Positions 6,059-49,762 of a DNA stretch of 64,000 nt are shown piece after piece. Each line of letters begins with the position of its first letter. The stretch's first letter is position 1. The notes under the pieces are model-generated. The model made no database searches. It saw only the letters and a program-made list of their open reading frames with translations, and was not told the DNA's origin. The stretch is taken from NCBI RefSeq assembly GCF_011761985.1, contig NZ_JAASQT010000002.1:434001-498000 (forward strand), read 5' to 3'. The position numbers and the translations under genes were made by a program. The stretch is from Brevundimonas terrae (GTDB lineage Bacteria > Pseudomonadota > Alphaproteobacteria > Caulobacterales > Caulobacteraceae).

Positions 6059-6910
6059 ATGAAAAACCTGCTGATTTGCATGAGCGCAGCCACCGTCCTT
6101 CTGGCCGGTGCTGCACAGGCCCAATCCACATCGTCGGCGGATTGGCGCACGGTGGCCCCCGAGAATCTGTGGGTGATTGATACGTCCAAGGGGCGGGTTC
6201 TGGTCGAGCTGGAACCGCGCGTTGCGCCGAACCATATCGAGCGTATCCGTACCCTGACGAACCAGAACTTCTATGACGGGCTGAAATTCCACCGCGTCAT
6301 TCCCGATTTCATGGCGCAAACGGGTGATCCCAAGGGGACGGGCGAGGGGGGCAGTGAGCTGCCCGATATCGCCGCCGAGTTCAGCTTCCGCCGTGGCCGC
6401 GATGCGGGCTATGTGCCGGTTGCCAATGGTGGCCCCGGCTACATCGGCACTGTGGGCTCGGTCGTGGTTGCGACCCAGCCCGACGCCCAGATGATGATCA
6501 ATGCCGATATGAAGGTGTCGGCCACGCCGCTGTTCTGCGCGGGCACGGCCGGTATGGCGCGTGCAGGCCAACCTGACAGCGCCAACAGCCAGTTCTATCT
6601 GACGACGGGCCATGCCGACACGCTGAACGGCAACTATACGGTGTTTGGTCGCGTACTGTCGGGTCTGGACGTTGTGAAGTCGCTGAAAGCCGGCTCTGAA
6701 GCGGCGGACGGTGCCGTGGGCGAGGGGGCCGATGTGATGACGCGCGTGCGTCTGGCCTCGCAACTGCCGCCAGCGGAACGCCCGCAGGTGCGCGTGGCTG
6801 TGGCCGGTGGTGCGCCGTTCAATGCGGCAGTCGAGACGGCGCGTACGGCCAAGGGCAACGGCTTTACAGCATGCGATATCCAGATACCGGTTCAGATCGA
6901 TAACGGCTGA
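6059..6910 (+). CDS. Periplasmic cyclophilin-type peptidyl-prolyl isomerase (1)
   Basis: A 283-residue protein with a signal peptide (cleavage after AQA, about residue 21) and a cyclophilin domain. The active-site stretch FHRVIPDFMAQTGD keeps Arg, Phe and Gln of the family, and NSQFYLTTG provides the second half. A long loop precedes the LFCAG segment. About 70 residues follow the domain, ending in ACDIQIPVQI. Cys residues in LFCAG and in the terminal motif are the only ones in the mature chain and could pair. The gene follows coaD by 12 nt and precedes a paralog, so the two probably share a transcript. Role: proline isomerisation in exported-protein folding. Confidence 0.92.
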   Translation: MKNLLICMSAATVLLAGAAQAQSTSSADWRTVAPENLWVIDTSKGRVLVELEPRVAPNHIERIRTLTNQNFYDGLKFHRVIPDFMAQTGDPKGTGEGGSELPDIAAEFSFRRGRDAGYVPVANGGPGYIGTVGSVVVATQPDAQMMINADMKVSATPLFCAGTAGMARAGQPDSANSQFYLTTGHADTLNGNYTVFGRVLSGLDVVKSLKAGSEAADGAVGEGADVMTRVRLASQLPPAERPQVRVAVAGGAPFNAAVETARTAKGNGFTACDIQIPVQIDNG

Positions 6911-6944: not shown

Positions 6945-7796
6945 ATGATGAAACCGGTAAACCTTGTAGCCGCAGCCCTTGTGGCCAGTTTCGGTTTCTC
7001 TCCCGCCCTTGCGGACCCTGTGGGCCCCGATAGCGATTACGAGGCCATCGCCCCCGAGAACCTGCTGGTTATCGACACGACCAAAGGGCGTATCTGGGTC
7101 GAGATGACGCCCGATATTGCCCCCTTGCATGTCGAGCGTATCCGCTTGCTGGCGGGTGAGGGCTTTTATGACAACGTTAAATGGCACCGCGTCATTGACG
7201 GCTTTATGGCCCAGACAGGTGACCCGACGGGCACCGGCGAGGGTGGCAGCACCCATGGCACTGTAAAGGCCGAGCTGACCTTCCGTCGCGGGCCGGAAAC
7301 GCCGTTCGAGCCTGTGGCCCATCCTGCGGGCTATCCCGAGGGTTTTCACCACAGTGTACCCGTCTATAGCCAGCCAGACCGTTTCTATGGCCGGTTCGAG
7401 GATGGCAAGGTGACGGCATGGGGCATGTACTGCCCCGGTGTTGCGGGCATGGCCCGCGATACGGATGAAAACAGCGCCGACAGCCAGTTCTTCTTTATGC
7501 GCGACGTCTATCCGTCGCTGGATCGCCGCTACAGCATCTGGGGCCGCGTTGTGGCCGGTCAGGATGTCGTCAATGCGTTGAAGGCGGGCGATCTGCCCAG
7601 CGGTATGGTGACCGACCCCGATATCATGACCAAGGTGCAGGTGGCCTCGGCCATCCCGGAAGGCGAGCGCCCTAGCGTCTATCGTCTGCGTCCAGATAGC
7701 CGCACCTTCAGGGGCATGGTGGCGACTGTACGTCAGGCGCGAGGTGCAGATTTCTCGCCGTGCGACATCCAGATTCCGGTGCGGATCGAACCTTAA
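6945..7796 (+). CDS. Periplasmic cyclophilin-type peptidyl-prolyl isomerase (2)
   Basis: A 283-residue paralog of the preceding gene. It has a signal peptide (cleavage after ALA, about residue 22), the active-site block WHRVIDGFMAQTGD, then DSQFFFMRD, and the same tail motif PCDIQIPVRI. It also keeps a Cys in the MYCPG loop, matching the first copy. Its substrate loop differs strongly (EGFHHSVPVYSQPDRF), so the two may serve different clients. Two Met codons stand in a row: AAAGG is better spaced to the second (6948), so the true start could be one codon later. The stop lies 3 nt from the convergent Ppx/GppA stop. Confidence 0.9.
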   Translation: MMKPVNLVAAALVASFGFSPALADPVGPDSDYEAIAPENLLVIDTTKGRIWVEMTPDIAPLHVERIRLLAGEGFYDNVKWHRVIDGFMAQTGDPTGTGEGGSTHGTVKAELTFRRGPETPFEPVAHPAGYPEGFHHSVPVYSQPDRFYGRFEDGKVTAWGMYCPGVAGMARDTDENSADSQFFFMRDVYPSLDRRYSIWGRVVAGQDVVNALKAGDLPSGMVTDPDIMTKVQVASAIPEGERPSVYRLRPDSRTFRGMVATVRQARGADFSPCDIQIPVRIEP

Positions 7797-45944: not shown

Positions 45945-46640
45945 TTACAGGCTGTCGACCATGACCAGTTCGGCGTCTTCGCTGGCCGTGATGGTGATGG
46001 TGGCTTCATCGACGATGCCTGCGCCATCACGAGCGTTCAGCGTGGTGCCGTTCACATCCACCTTGCCGACTGCCGGAACCAGATAGGCGCGGCGACCGGC
46101 GGCCAGATCATAGGACAGGCTTTCACCGGCTTTGAGGGTCGCAGCCAGAACGCGGGCGTCGGCATTGATCATCAGGGCTTCGTCGGCAGAGTTGCCCGAG
46201 GCGACGATGGTGAACTGGCCAGAGCGGTCGGCCTTTGGAAACTCGCGCTGACCCCATGAAGGCTGTGCACCCGGACGGTCCGTCTCGATCCAGATCTGGA
46301 ACAGGGTCGTGAGCTCGTTCTCCATATTGTACTCGGCATGGCGCACACCGGTACCGGCGCTCATGACCTGAACATCGCCAGCGCCCGTACGGCCCGTATT
46401 GCCCATGGAGTCCTGGTGGGTGATGGCCCCCGTGCGGACATAGGTGATGATTTCCATGTCGGCGTGCGGGTGGGGCGGGAAGCCCGACTTCGGACCGATC
46501 TCGTCATCATTCCAGACGCGCAGACGGCCCCAGCCCATACGATTGGGATCGTAATAGTTGGCGAACGAGAAGTGGTGCTTGGCATCCAACCAGCCGTGGT
46601 TGGCACCACCGAGGGTATTGAAAGGACGGACATCGATCAT
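45945..46640 (-). CDS. Pirin-family protein
   Basis: A 231-residue bicupin. The metal site is visible in FPPHPHADMEIITYV and GTGVRHAEYN. The closest pattern is the YhhW/YhaK type, some of which show quercetinase activity; others act as redox or transcription cofactors. ATG 46640 has GGGAG at about 6 nt; a long frame continuing upstream is not conserved. Stands alone, with a repeat-bearing intergenic region behind it. Confidence 0.9.
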   Translation of the reverse strand: MIDVRPFNTLGGANHGWLDAKHHFSFANYYDPNRMGWGRLRVWNDDEIGPKSGFPPHPHADMEIITYVRTGAITHQDSMGNTGRTGAGDVQVMSAGTGVRHAEYNMENELTTLFQIWIETDRPGAQPSWGQREFPKADRSGQFTIVASGNSADEALMINADARVLAATLKAGESLSYDLAAGRRAYLVPAVGKVDVNGTTLNARDGAGIVDEATITITASEDAELVMVDSL

Positions 46641-47242
46641 GGTGATCTCCCTAACGCTTAGAGTGTGCAGCGCGTTGCTGCTTCGTTGAGAGCTATATAC
46701 GCAACTGCTACTGTTACGAATAGGGGTGTGATGATCACGGATTGTTACACGTAACTCCTCCCTTGCGTAGCGGGGGAGGTGGCGCGGCGCACGCGCTGTG
46801 ACGGAGGGGGCGTAGTTGCTTTGCGGCTCTAATCCCCACCACATGCTGCGCATGGTCCCCCTCCCCCGCGAGCAGGGGAGGATGTTAATTATGGGCCGGT
46901 GTTATGTGAGGTCTAACTTATGGTGTAACTTGGCTGGATGATTTTCGGTCTGAGCCCCGCGCGGCTATATCATCGGTGCGGCCAAGCCTGACGCGGCCTT
47001 GTGGCGATCACATCCAGATGTCGTTTCTGTAGGCGTCGGCGCTGGAGACTGGATGGAACTCTCGGTTCGGCGTTTACCCTTGCTGACGCGGAAAAAATGT
47101 AATGCTGAGAGGGAGCTCTATTGAAGACGTGAGAGCCAAGTCCGAACACGTGTTCTGGGCGAGGGGAAGTGCCCACTTTATTTGTTTGAACGTTTGCCTT
47201 CGGCAGTTCGTGTCAGGGTGTGAAGGTAAAGAAGTGTCTTCG
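46641..47242. other. Intergenic region with a palindromic repeat and no confident gene
   Basis: About 600 bases. The first 110 should hold the pirin promoter, then the GC-rich repeat at 46755-46886. The remainder to 47242 has short open frames on both strands but none with a recognisable protein or a good ribosome site. Confidence 0.5.
46755..46886. repeat. Intergenic palindromic GC-rich repeat element
   Basis: Two hairpin-forming blocks, CTCCTCCC...GGGGGAGG at 46755-46779 and CTCCCC...GGGGAG at 46861-46880, flank a core with GCGCGGCGCACGCGC and CATGCTGCGCATG. The outer blocks are roughly inverted copies of one another. This is the look of the short intergenic repeats scattered through Caulobacterales genomes. 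Only one copy is in the window. Confidence 0.6.
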
Positions 47243-47434
47243 ATGAGACAATCTATGGAGCGTTACCAAAGAATATTTTTGAAAGTTTGGGCCACTTTAT
47301 GGGTTGGATGTTGGTTGCTAGCCTTTTTAGTCTTTCTTGCTCAAAAGCAATACTGGCATGCTATCATACCTGTTTTGGCTATTTTGCCAGTTGTATTGGT
47401 AATTTGGCTCTTCCGATTTATTAGCAAAGTTTGA
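47243..47434 (+). CDS. Small AT-rich membrane protein, unknown function
   Basis: A 63-residue protein with two hydrophobic helices (about 12-32 and 38-58) and basic ends, likely in the inner membrane. The sequence is AT-rich like the small gene at 47669 and unlike aroC. The open frame continues upstream without a clear start, so ATG 47243 is a guess; GTG 47234 is possible. Existence moderately likely. Confidence 0.5.
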   Translation: MRQSMERYQRIFLKVWATLWVGCWLLAFLVFLAQKQYWHAIIPVLAILPVVLVIWLFRFISKV

Positions 47435-47490
47435 TCGGCACTTAGTGGAATACCGTGGTGCAGACACACTTCGTTTGACCGCAGGTGGTG

Positions 47491-47611
47491 TTACCCCACC
47501 TGCGCTCTATGCCTTAGCTTCGCATCCGCCATCACAATCGCCGCTATCGCTTCCACGATCGGAACGCCGCGCAGGGCGACGCAGTGGTCGTGGCGGCTTT
47601 TGGTGCGCAGG
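47491..47611 (-). pseudogene. aroC: Remnant of a second aroC 3' end
   Basis: On the minus strand this encodes the last 39 residues of a chorismate synthase plus its stop codon, matching the end of the intact aroC at 47952. By hand alignment 95 of 112 bases agree without gaps (47500-47611 against 47961-48072). Six of 39 residues differ, mostly conservatively, and most base changes are silent. Similarity fades upstream of 47611. The rest of the gene is absent. Confidence 0.85.
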
Positions 47612-47668
47612 CTCTTATTCGCTGTCGTGATTGCGTGGACGTTTCGAGACGCAAACGGCTTCTAGCGG

Positions 47669-47920
47669 TCAGAACCTTGTCTTGCAGTGGGGGCAGGTGT
47701 CCTTCGCGATTTCAGGTTTTTTGAAGAAATCGGTTTGGGTCGGATTGATGCGCTCACCGCATGATTTGCAATCCGCGAACATGATGTAGAGCACAGCAAT
47801 GGAGAAAGGGATGGGGAGCAGAAAAACCCAAAAAACATCCAAGTTTCTGTTGAATATGAAGAAACCGATGATGAGGAATGGCGCTATAATCGAAAATCGG
47901 TAAGCCAGTTTGTAGAGCAT
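47669..47920 (-). CDS. Small zinc-ribbon membrane protein, unknown function
   Basis: An 83-residue protein: two hydrophobic helices (about 8-26 and 31-50) followed by a zinc-ribbon-like tail with CKSCGE and CPHCKTRF. The family is not recognised. GAGG lies 5 nt before ATG 47920; a GTG two codons earlier is an alternative. The gene is AT-rich and lies exactly between the intact aroC and the duplicated aroC 3' end, so it probably arrived with that rearrangement. Confidence 0.68.
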   Translation of the reverse strand: MLYKLAYRFSIIAPFLIIGFFIFNRNLDVFWVFLLPIPFSIAVLYIMFADCKSCGERINPTQTDFFKKPEIAKDTCPHCKTRF

Positions 47921-47951
47921 GCGCACCTCGAAATTTGGTATCTTTTAGGGC

Positions 47952-49037
47952 TTAACCCAACTGCGCCCGATGCCTTAGCTTCGCATCTGCCAGCACAATG
48001 GCTGCCATCGCTTCCACGACCGGAACGCCACGTAGCGCCACGCAAGGGTCGTGGCGGCCCTTGGTGCGTAGGTCTACTTCGGCACCGTCGCGGTTGATGG
48101 TCTGGCGGTGGGTAAGGATGGAGGAGGTGGGCTTGAAGGCCACGCGGGCGGTGACGGGCTGGCCCGTCGAGATGCCGCCGAGGATGCCGCCTGCCTTGTT
48201 CGACAGGAAGACCGGCTCGCCATCGGGGCCAATGCGCATTTCGTCGGCGTTTTCCTCGCCTGACAGCATGGCGGCCTCGAAGCCTGCTCCGATTTCCACG
48301 CCTTTGACGGCGTTGATGGTCATCAGGCCCGCGGCCAGTTCGCTATCCAGTTTGGCATAGAGCGGTGCGCCCCATCCGGCAGGCACTCCGATGACTTCCA
48401 GAGCCACAATCGCGCCGATGCTGGAACCGGCTTTACGAACGGTATCCAGATAGGCTTCCCATTGCGGCACCACTTCGTTGGAAGCGGCGAACAGGGCGTT
48501 GTCATAGACGGCGCTGAAGTCGATCTGGTCGTCAGGTATGCGGTGCGGGCCAAGCTGAACCACGCCAGCGCGGATCTGGATGCTGTCGCCCAGAACCTTG
48601 CGGGCCACGGCACCGGCCGCCACGCGGCTGGCCGTTTCGCGGGCGGATGAGCGTCCGCCGCCGCGATAGTCGCGCACGCCGTATTTGGCCTGATAGGTGA
48701 AGTCGGCATGACCGGGGCGGAAGGCATGGGCGATCTCGCCATAGTCCTTGGAGCGCTGGTCGGTGTTCTCGATCATCAGGCTGATCGGTGTGCCGGTGGT
48801 GACCGGGCCATTACCGTCGTCGAACACGCCGGACAGGATTTTCACCGCGTCGGCCTCTTGGCGCTGGGTGACAAAGCGGCTGCCGCCCGGTTTACGCTGG
48901 TCGAGGAAGGGCTGGATGTCCGCTTCGGTCAGCGGGATCAGGGGAGGGCAGCCGTCAACGACGACGCCAATGGCCGGCCCGTGGCTTTCGCCCCAGGTGG
49001 TGATGCGGAACAGGTGACCGAAGCTGTTATGTGACAT
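47952..49037 (-). CDS. aroC: Chorismate synthase
   Basis: A 361-residue AroC, final step of the shikimate pathway (EPSP to chorismate, reduced FMN as cofactor). The family signatures [17 protein letters not shown] at the N terminus, [30 protein letters not shown], and the C-terminal [19 protein letters not shown] are present. It is intact and normal in length. A J-domain gene precedes it by 11 nt, and a diverged copy of its 3' end lies 340 nt downstream. Confidence 0.97.
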
Positions 49038-49048
49038 GAGGCTAGGGC

Positions 49049-49762
49049 TTAAGCCGCTGCGGCCTGTGTCGTCCAGAGCTGAGTGAAGCGATGGTGACGA
49101 TCTTGTGTCTCTGTGAGGCTTTCAGGCTTGGCTTCCAGCGAGACAAACAGGTCACCGACAGGGCGCGAACCGCGTGCAGGAAGGCCCAAACCTTCGAAGC
49201 GCAACCTGACCGGCGAGGTCATATCGGGCACCAGCCATGCGGATTGTGGCCCGACGGGGGTGTCAAACTCGACCCGACCGCCATCGCGCACCAGATGGGC
49301 CTCGATGCGGGTCTGGAAGAACAGGTCCGAGCCGAAAACCGACAGCCCATCGCGGGGTCTGATCTTTACCGGCACAGTCATCAGGTCTTTGAGGCGCAGT
49401 TGGTCGCCATGACGCAGACCCGGTGCAAGGCGCACACGGTACAGGCGGTCATCGACATAAAGGCTGGTAATGCCGCCCTTTAGAGCCTGCATCGGCGATA
49501 TGACGATCTCGGGATCAGGGCGAACAACCCGCAGGCCGGTTGTCTGCGGCCCCTCCAGCAGCAGGCGCTGGCCGGACTGGTTTTGCAGCAGGTGGTAGGC
49601 ATCAACCACATAGCGGAACAGCACCACATCGCCGTTTGGCTGGTCGGGGTGGACCGCCTTGGCGACGCGGCGGAACGCAGCCGACAGCTCGGCCGGACTG
49701 ACCGGACCTGTCAGGTCCAGTATCCGGTAGGCGTCCAGAACTGTGAGTGGCCTTGCGCTCAT
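49049..49762 (-). CDS. J-domain (DnaJ-like) co-chaperone
   Basis: A 237-residue protein with a J domain at residues 8-60 (HPD at 38-40) and a C-terminal substrate-binding part like DnaJ domain III ([32 protein letters not shown]), without the zinc-finger region. It stimulates DnaK-type ATPase in family terms. It is co-oriented with aroC and divergent from pdxH, an arrangement known in Caulobacterales. Confidence 0.85.

Follow-up and report, generated by a model that had tools for sequence, protein, structure and literature searches.

The 3' end of aroC, the gene for chorismate synthase, is present twice in this stretch of the Brevundimonas terrae genome, once in the intact gene and once as a remnant behind a small gene that separates the two. 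We believe, with confidence that stands about even, that the remnant is the displaced old end of aroC, left by a fragment from a related Brevundimonas that was anchored in aroC by homology and joined illegitimately at its other side, and that probably brought the zinc-ribbon gene along with a replacement end for aroC. The scar of recombination is real and well preserved. It belongs to a known kind, here at an anchor that is unusual, and the mechanism that produced it is one that we infer. In what follows, the window is the whole stretch of DNA that was analysed, 64,000 nucleotides long. The features that matter are these:

45945 to 46640, minus strand: pirin-family gene (PF02678/PF17954), start placed by homology, which follows aroC in much of the genus.
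46756 to 46888, no strand assigned: palindromic REP-like repeat between the cargo and pirin, which folds better than 200 of 200 shuffles (z = -3.64).
47243 to 47434, plus strand: small gene convergent with aroC, 63 aa long and with two hydrophobic stretches, lying inside the open reading frame (ORF) 47102-47434; 37.5% GC.
47491 to 47611, minus strand: second aroC 3' end, 39 codons and stop, judged displaced and decaying from the repeat alignment and codon counts.
47669 to 47920, minus strand: small membrane zinc-ribbon gene of 83 aa, an ORF with two hydrophobic stretches and a CxxC...CxxC arrangement; 45.6% GC.
47952 to 48072, minus strand: last 121 nt of intact aroC, probably the end that arrived (relative to the majority of its three nearest kin, 14 codons differ silently and 1 by replacement; 9 of 32 private sites).
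47952 to 49037, minus strand: aroC, intact chorismate synthase of 361 aa (PF01264, 423.8 bits).

Alignment within the window places the second aroC end at 47491-47611, where it copies the last 39 codons and the stop of aroC (47952-48072) as a direct repeat, with 340 bp between the two ends. They differ at 19 of 121 nt (84.3% identity), in agreement with the initial annotation, which had recognized the same 39 codons and stop and had counted 95 of 112 matching bases by hand (84.8%). Self-BLAST aligns 131 nt at 83.2% (E = 1e-31), and the remnant translates in frame through all 39 codons to the stop. Homology ends sharply at 47611. A longer remnant interrupted by small gaps, hinted at by MAFFT, was rejected because the 60 flanking bases score at the level of shuffles against four aroC sequences (p = 0.28-0.63). 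When the 64-kb window was compared with itself for direct repeats 50 bases or longer and no more than 15 kb apart, one further pair appeared, an unrelated one. It lies at 6155-6354 and 7050-7249, spans about 200 bases at 70% identity and is perhaps paralogous coding sequence.

The differences between the two ends bear on which of them is the newcomer. The initial annotation had described the differences as mainly silent, and had taken this as a sign that the remnant diverged under selection in another aroC before arriving. In number the description is right, with 11 codons differing silently and 6 by replacement, but the two classes are unevenly placed: five of the six replacements sit on the remnant's side and nine of the 11 silent changes on the side of the intact gene. 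Measured against the majority of the three nearest relatives by aroC end (G140, G024 and G005), the remnant carries five replacement and six silent codons, four of the latter common to the intact end, and the intact end itself carries 14 silent codons and one replacement. Private codons, counted alike for all five sequences, number five replacement to two silent in the remnant and two to 16 in the four functional ends (p = 0.007 by Fisher's test); set beside only the intact end (one to seven), the remnant still stands apart (p = 0.04), as it does when all of its changes are used (5:6 vs 2:27, p = 0.011). The like-for-like test on private codons replaced an initial Fisher test (p = 0.001) that had set the private codons of the remnant against all codon changes in the functional ends. 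Four of the remnant's replacements, G>S, P>H, V>I and M>I, alter bases (14, 27, 53 and 67) that are invariant in 83 of 83 genus loci, these being the loci among 95 that passed a similarity filter. Because the private codons of the remnant lie near the neutral expectation for the replacement share (0.69), unlike those of the functional ends, and because four of them fall at invariant bases, the remnant, judged by its sequence, has changed as non-coding DNA does and is decaying. Its divergence is hence no record of life in another aroC; the silent, selection-filtered divergence is carried by the end inside the intact gene.

The distribution of private sites points the same way. Among the four genomes compared, intact aroC has 32 private sites, of which the last 121 nt hold nine, where 2.9 are expected from the rest of the gene (p = 0.007), so that the intact end has about three times as many private changes per base as the remainder. 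The excess persists when the site shared with the remnant is removed (8 of 31, p = 0.018) and at third positions (p = 0.02), and it is seen in the corresponding 121 nt of none of the other three genomes (1/17, 0/31 and 6/36). A cluster scan in which the segment was not fixed gave p = 0.006, 0.017, 0.12, 0.026 and 0.048 for widths of 16, 20, 48, 90 and 121. The excess is thus modest, a point that weighs against our reading; it favours the intact end as the arrival and is no proof of it. Taken together, these comparisons suggest that the polarity is better reversed, the intact end having arrived and the remnant being the old resident end, which is simpler than the direction first proposed. That earlier direction, a remnant arriving from another strain to lie beside a native intact end, is permitted by the tree described below, and the best match to the remnant in the genus is indeed the aroC of another species (G140, 92%). 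With the remnant's private changes looking neutral and the private excess sitting in the intact end, we consider it quite improbable.

Over the last 121 nt, the remnant differs from G140 at 10 positions and from its own aroC at 19, own aroC differs from G140 at 13, and G024 differs from G140 at 7. Of the sequences compared, G140 comes closest to the intact end, at 89%, and no donor end was found. In a tree of the 121-nt ends both window copies fall with G140, G024 and G005 in a clade of five rows (support 100/88), in which the intact end, the remnant and G140 are not separated; the grouping of remnant with G140 has support of only 67/5. Forcing the two copies to be sisters costs 3.1 log units and is not rejected (AU p = 0.447), and the tree settles neither the donor nor the sisterhood of the copies. 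Both the absence of a donor and the tolerance of sister copies count against arrival from outside. They leave room for a local event, in which part of the aroC end was duplicated in place and the zinc-ribbon gene inserted later, or in which end and gene were duplicated in tandem and the second gene copy was lost. Such an origin would place the copies in one clade, as found, and would account for base 1063 of aroC, which is common to both copies and absent in G140, G024 and G005. This base is a weak link, however, being A in 44 of 83 genus loci, and we rejected it as proof that the copies are sisters. A local origin requires two events, and no second copy of the zinc-ribbon gene occurs among the repeats of 46600-49100; nor would it lead one to expect a remnant that resembles G140 more than its own aroC, or a threefold rate of private change in the intact end. 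We regard local duplication as unlikely, if worth keeping in mind. That a strain resembling G024 had donated the whole of aroC was also considered (aroC 93% identical, dnaJ 67%) and rejected, because G140, in a comparison for which the contig of G005 lacked dnaJ, has the same gene-to-gene profile; aroC is simply slow.

We examined the region downstream of aroC across the genus, using 95 aroC loci from the 130 other Brevundimonas genomes searched; the remaining genomes gave no match at the DNA level, broke off at the edge of a contig or were not retrieved. Pirin was present downstream of aroC within the stretch examined in 56 loci, at a distance of 55-90 bp in 20 of them and of 187-2,496 bp in the other 36, and was not found within the 1.4-12 kb examined in 39. 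A protein search of the downstream DNA examined found a second aroC end at none of the 95 loci. A DNA self-search up to 4 kb gave six weak matches of 21-69 nt in five loci, five of them inverted and the sole direct one, in G098, of 43 nt at 77%; in another set of 80 loci (77 with enough downstream DNA), the only match was that same 43-nt one, here in L032, which is evidently G098 under another label. When 131 genus genomes were searched with DNA (115 with a match, at most four candidates scored per genome), a second aroC-end match was seen in this genome alone, the one exception being a stretch of 31 nt in G073 that is unlinked, and a search of 61 genomes with AroC protein (57 with a match) gave two matches in this genome only.

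The content of the gap between aroC and pirin varies even among the nearest relatives. G005 has no cargo gene there, its sole ORF of at least 50 codons running through a REP-like repeat at 68% GC; the gap of G140 holds an ORF of 237 codons (46% GC), and that of G024 four other ORFs within 2.5 kb. Because close relatives thus have no cargo or different cargo, we conclude from their sequences that the gap is a hotspot for the insertion of small genes. Many genomes have one ORF of roughly 85-140 codons in the gap, and G018 and G014 have there a BrnT-like toxin gene and a BrnA-like antitoxin gene, respectively, both over the Pfam cut-off. A BrnT-like toxin gene and a BrnA-like antitoxin gene occupy the aroC-pirin gap at L030:1219-1470 and L165:5201-5527, respectively, each in a Brevundimonas genome other than this one. 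The initial annotation had suggested integration at the aroC 3' end with an incoming segment that supplied a replacement end. Its first element, insertion with a replacement end, fits the retention of an uninterrupted site in relatives, with the 55-90 bp gaps in 20 of 56 pirin-linked loci and the lack of cargo in G005; for site-specific integration we found no positive evidence.

Some integrases, such as those of e14 and phage 21 at icd, use the 3' end of a gene and restore the gene. The topology here matches theirs, with a replacement 3' end and the original end displaced, and it could be the relic of a tyrosine-integrase element that had its att site at the aroC 3' end, gave a replacement end and then lost all but one cargo gene. 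Unlike the icd case, the site has no integrase nearby and shows no sign of repeated use. The genome has six matches to the tyrosine integrase domain PF00589, each either at least about 128 kb distant or on a different contig, so that the initial remark that no integrase is present holds for tyrosine integrases, the class searched for, over about 128 kb of the contig; nor did any of 10 cargo proteins from seven other loci match PF00589. The absence of a second aroC end at 95 of 95 loci also argues against such a relic, since a used att site would leave one. No phage record matches the remnant, and viral contigs lack the exact degenerate aroC-end pattern, a weak test since a single replaced residue escapes the pattern. 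The longest identical run between the two ends, looked at as an att core, is 18 nt within a repeat of 84%. On this evidence we hold an integrase relic to be improbable. Plasmid records gave 29 matches to the intact aroC end, 60-90% alike, of which the best 15 of the 29 cover 78-86% of the query; these are presumably ordinary aroC genes of large replicons. Among the matches listed, G031, G073, G079 and G084 have a strong tyrosine recombinase match some 11-12 kb beyond aroC, perhaps XerC/D to judge by its score.

The cargo itself is small and AT-rich. As had been annotated, the 340 bases between the aroC ends, at 47.4% GC against 59.8% for the window, hold only one membrane/zinc-ribbon gene (47669-47920), and another small AT-rich membrane gene (47243-47434) lies just beyond the remnant. 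The bounds given for the zinc-ribbon gene assume the ATG start; an alternative GTG lies at 47926. This ATG comes 31 nt after the stop of aroC, both genes being on one strand, and a pattern scan of these 31 nt revealed no terminator-like or promoter-like site, which is consistent with a shared transcript; the zinc-ribbon gene would therefore be read with aroC. The 83-aa protein has no Pfam match above the cut-off, every match being below it. It was found in no other of the 131 genus genomes and has no plasmid match and no relative on viral contigs; against phage, one stretch of 38 residues was found (E = 0.1). In the order, 36 of 398 genomes, this one included, have matches at E <= 0.1, and below 0.001 there is, besides this genome, only G218, of another genus (38% over 66 aa, E = 4e-5). 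Since the G218 relative retains both CxxC pairs, it supports the zinc-ribbon gene as a real gene. Among 5.8 billion proteins there is one cluster, of five member sequences, that differs by one residue over the 83 aa. The gene is likely to share the transcript of aroC and to encode an orphan membrane protein that binds metal. A search for the block behind other aroC genes, which the initial annotation had proposed, found it at no other aroC, and this weighs against our reading.

Beyond the remnant lies the 63-aa gene, which we take to be older cargo. It has no match in the 130 other genus genomes at E 0.001, and stretches at E 0.005-0.01 occur in 5 of 397 other genomes of the order. Neither small gene matched in padloc, nor did either have anything over the Pfam cut-off. 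The REP-like repeat is on the pirin side, the 63-aa gene standing between this repeat and the remnant; elsewhere in the genome it recurs as three partial copies of 30-55 nt, and an alignable copy of the repeat lies behind aroC in G005. By eye, REP-like pieces flank the cargo in G140 and G024. About 350 bases (46885-47242) separate the REP-like element from the 63-aa gene, and matches to the block 46885-47490 within the genus do not exceed 43 nt.

The arrangement could have arisen as follows. DNA from a related Brevundimonas would have recombined into aroC by homology at one side of the fragment, and the other side would have been joined non-homologously, probably at about 47611/47612. The fragment would thereby have supplied, probably, the new aroC end and brought in the zinc-ribbon gene, and the resident end would have been left behind the new cargo, to decay there. 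An anchor in aroC and a non-homologous join would together give the order gene, new DNA, old gene end. Homology is present on one side of the insert, in the two aroC ends (121 nt, 84%), one of which we infer to have arrived. The carrier may have been taken-up or transduced DNA, linear or recircularised. In linear homology-facilitated illegitimate recombination (HFIR), the crossover would lie upstream of aroC base 965 and the whole intact end would be donor; in a single crossover by a recircularised fragment, it would lie inside the 121 nt. Both positions fit, because aroC is free of private changes over bases 736-923 and they set in at base 924-993.

There are experimental and natural parallels. 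In the E. coli experiment described in PMC3240628, fragments carrying a lacZ end left a partial duplication of that end, which PCR showed in 56 of 60 clones and which measured 109-950 bp in the 14 that were sequenced; this was explained by a single crossover of a recircularised molecule. The product, a gene followed by foreign DNA and a partial second gene end, resembles the one described here, where the second end is 121 nt; a laboratory plasmid and a selected marker were used there, whereas here the sequence is natural and diverged and no selection is known. The same source portrays HFIR as one homologous anchor and one non-homologous join, with 3-10 bp of microhomology in most cases, and found it in only 4 of the 60 clones (PMC3240628). 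That rarity, a feature on which both PMC3240628 and PMC5361080 agree, counts against our reading. HFIR shares with our case an anchor in a conserved gene, one apparently non-homologous join and a small insert, but it usually deletes about as much as it inserts (PMC3240628), and here little loss of resident DNA is needed. In the T6SS arrays of V. cholerae, for which PMC5361080 proposes an HFIR-like event, a new end and a small gene displace older ends and genes downstream. The window likewise has a new end and a small downstream gene, with an older end and a small gene behind, in the order remnant, then 63-aa gene, the latter presumably the older. Unlike those orphan immunity arrays, the anchor here is a housekeeping enzyme (PF01264), not a toxin, there is no known toxin-immunity pair, and no variable toxin end of T6SS/Rhs type with its immunity gene is seen, both small genes being without a padloc match and without a Pfam match over the cut-off. 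A limited search of the literature found no similar report, and we make no claim that none is in print.

A broader and rather unlikely possibility is that the aroC 3' end serves as an integrase-free dock for accretion, at which successive fragments, each with an aroC end and a small AT-rich gene, push the previous end and its cargo outward. New cargo would then come to lie directly behind aroC in its transcript, and the zinc-ribbon gene, the old end and the older membrane gene would be layers of this process, stacked at a housekeeping gene in the manner of the T6SS immunity arrays.

Small variable segments make up a large part of bacterial diversity, according to PMC2884548. On our reading, the aroC region of B. 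terrae would be a natural example of a core gene acting as a homology anchor for small orphan genes, with no enzyme of a mobile element. It also shows how an arrived copy can be told from a resident one, by asking which decays and which carries selected divergence. If layered accretion at the ends of core genes proves general, searching for duplicate 3' ends in decay would show where many orphan genes entered.
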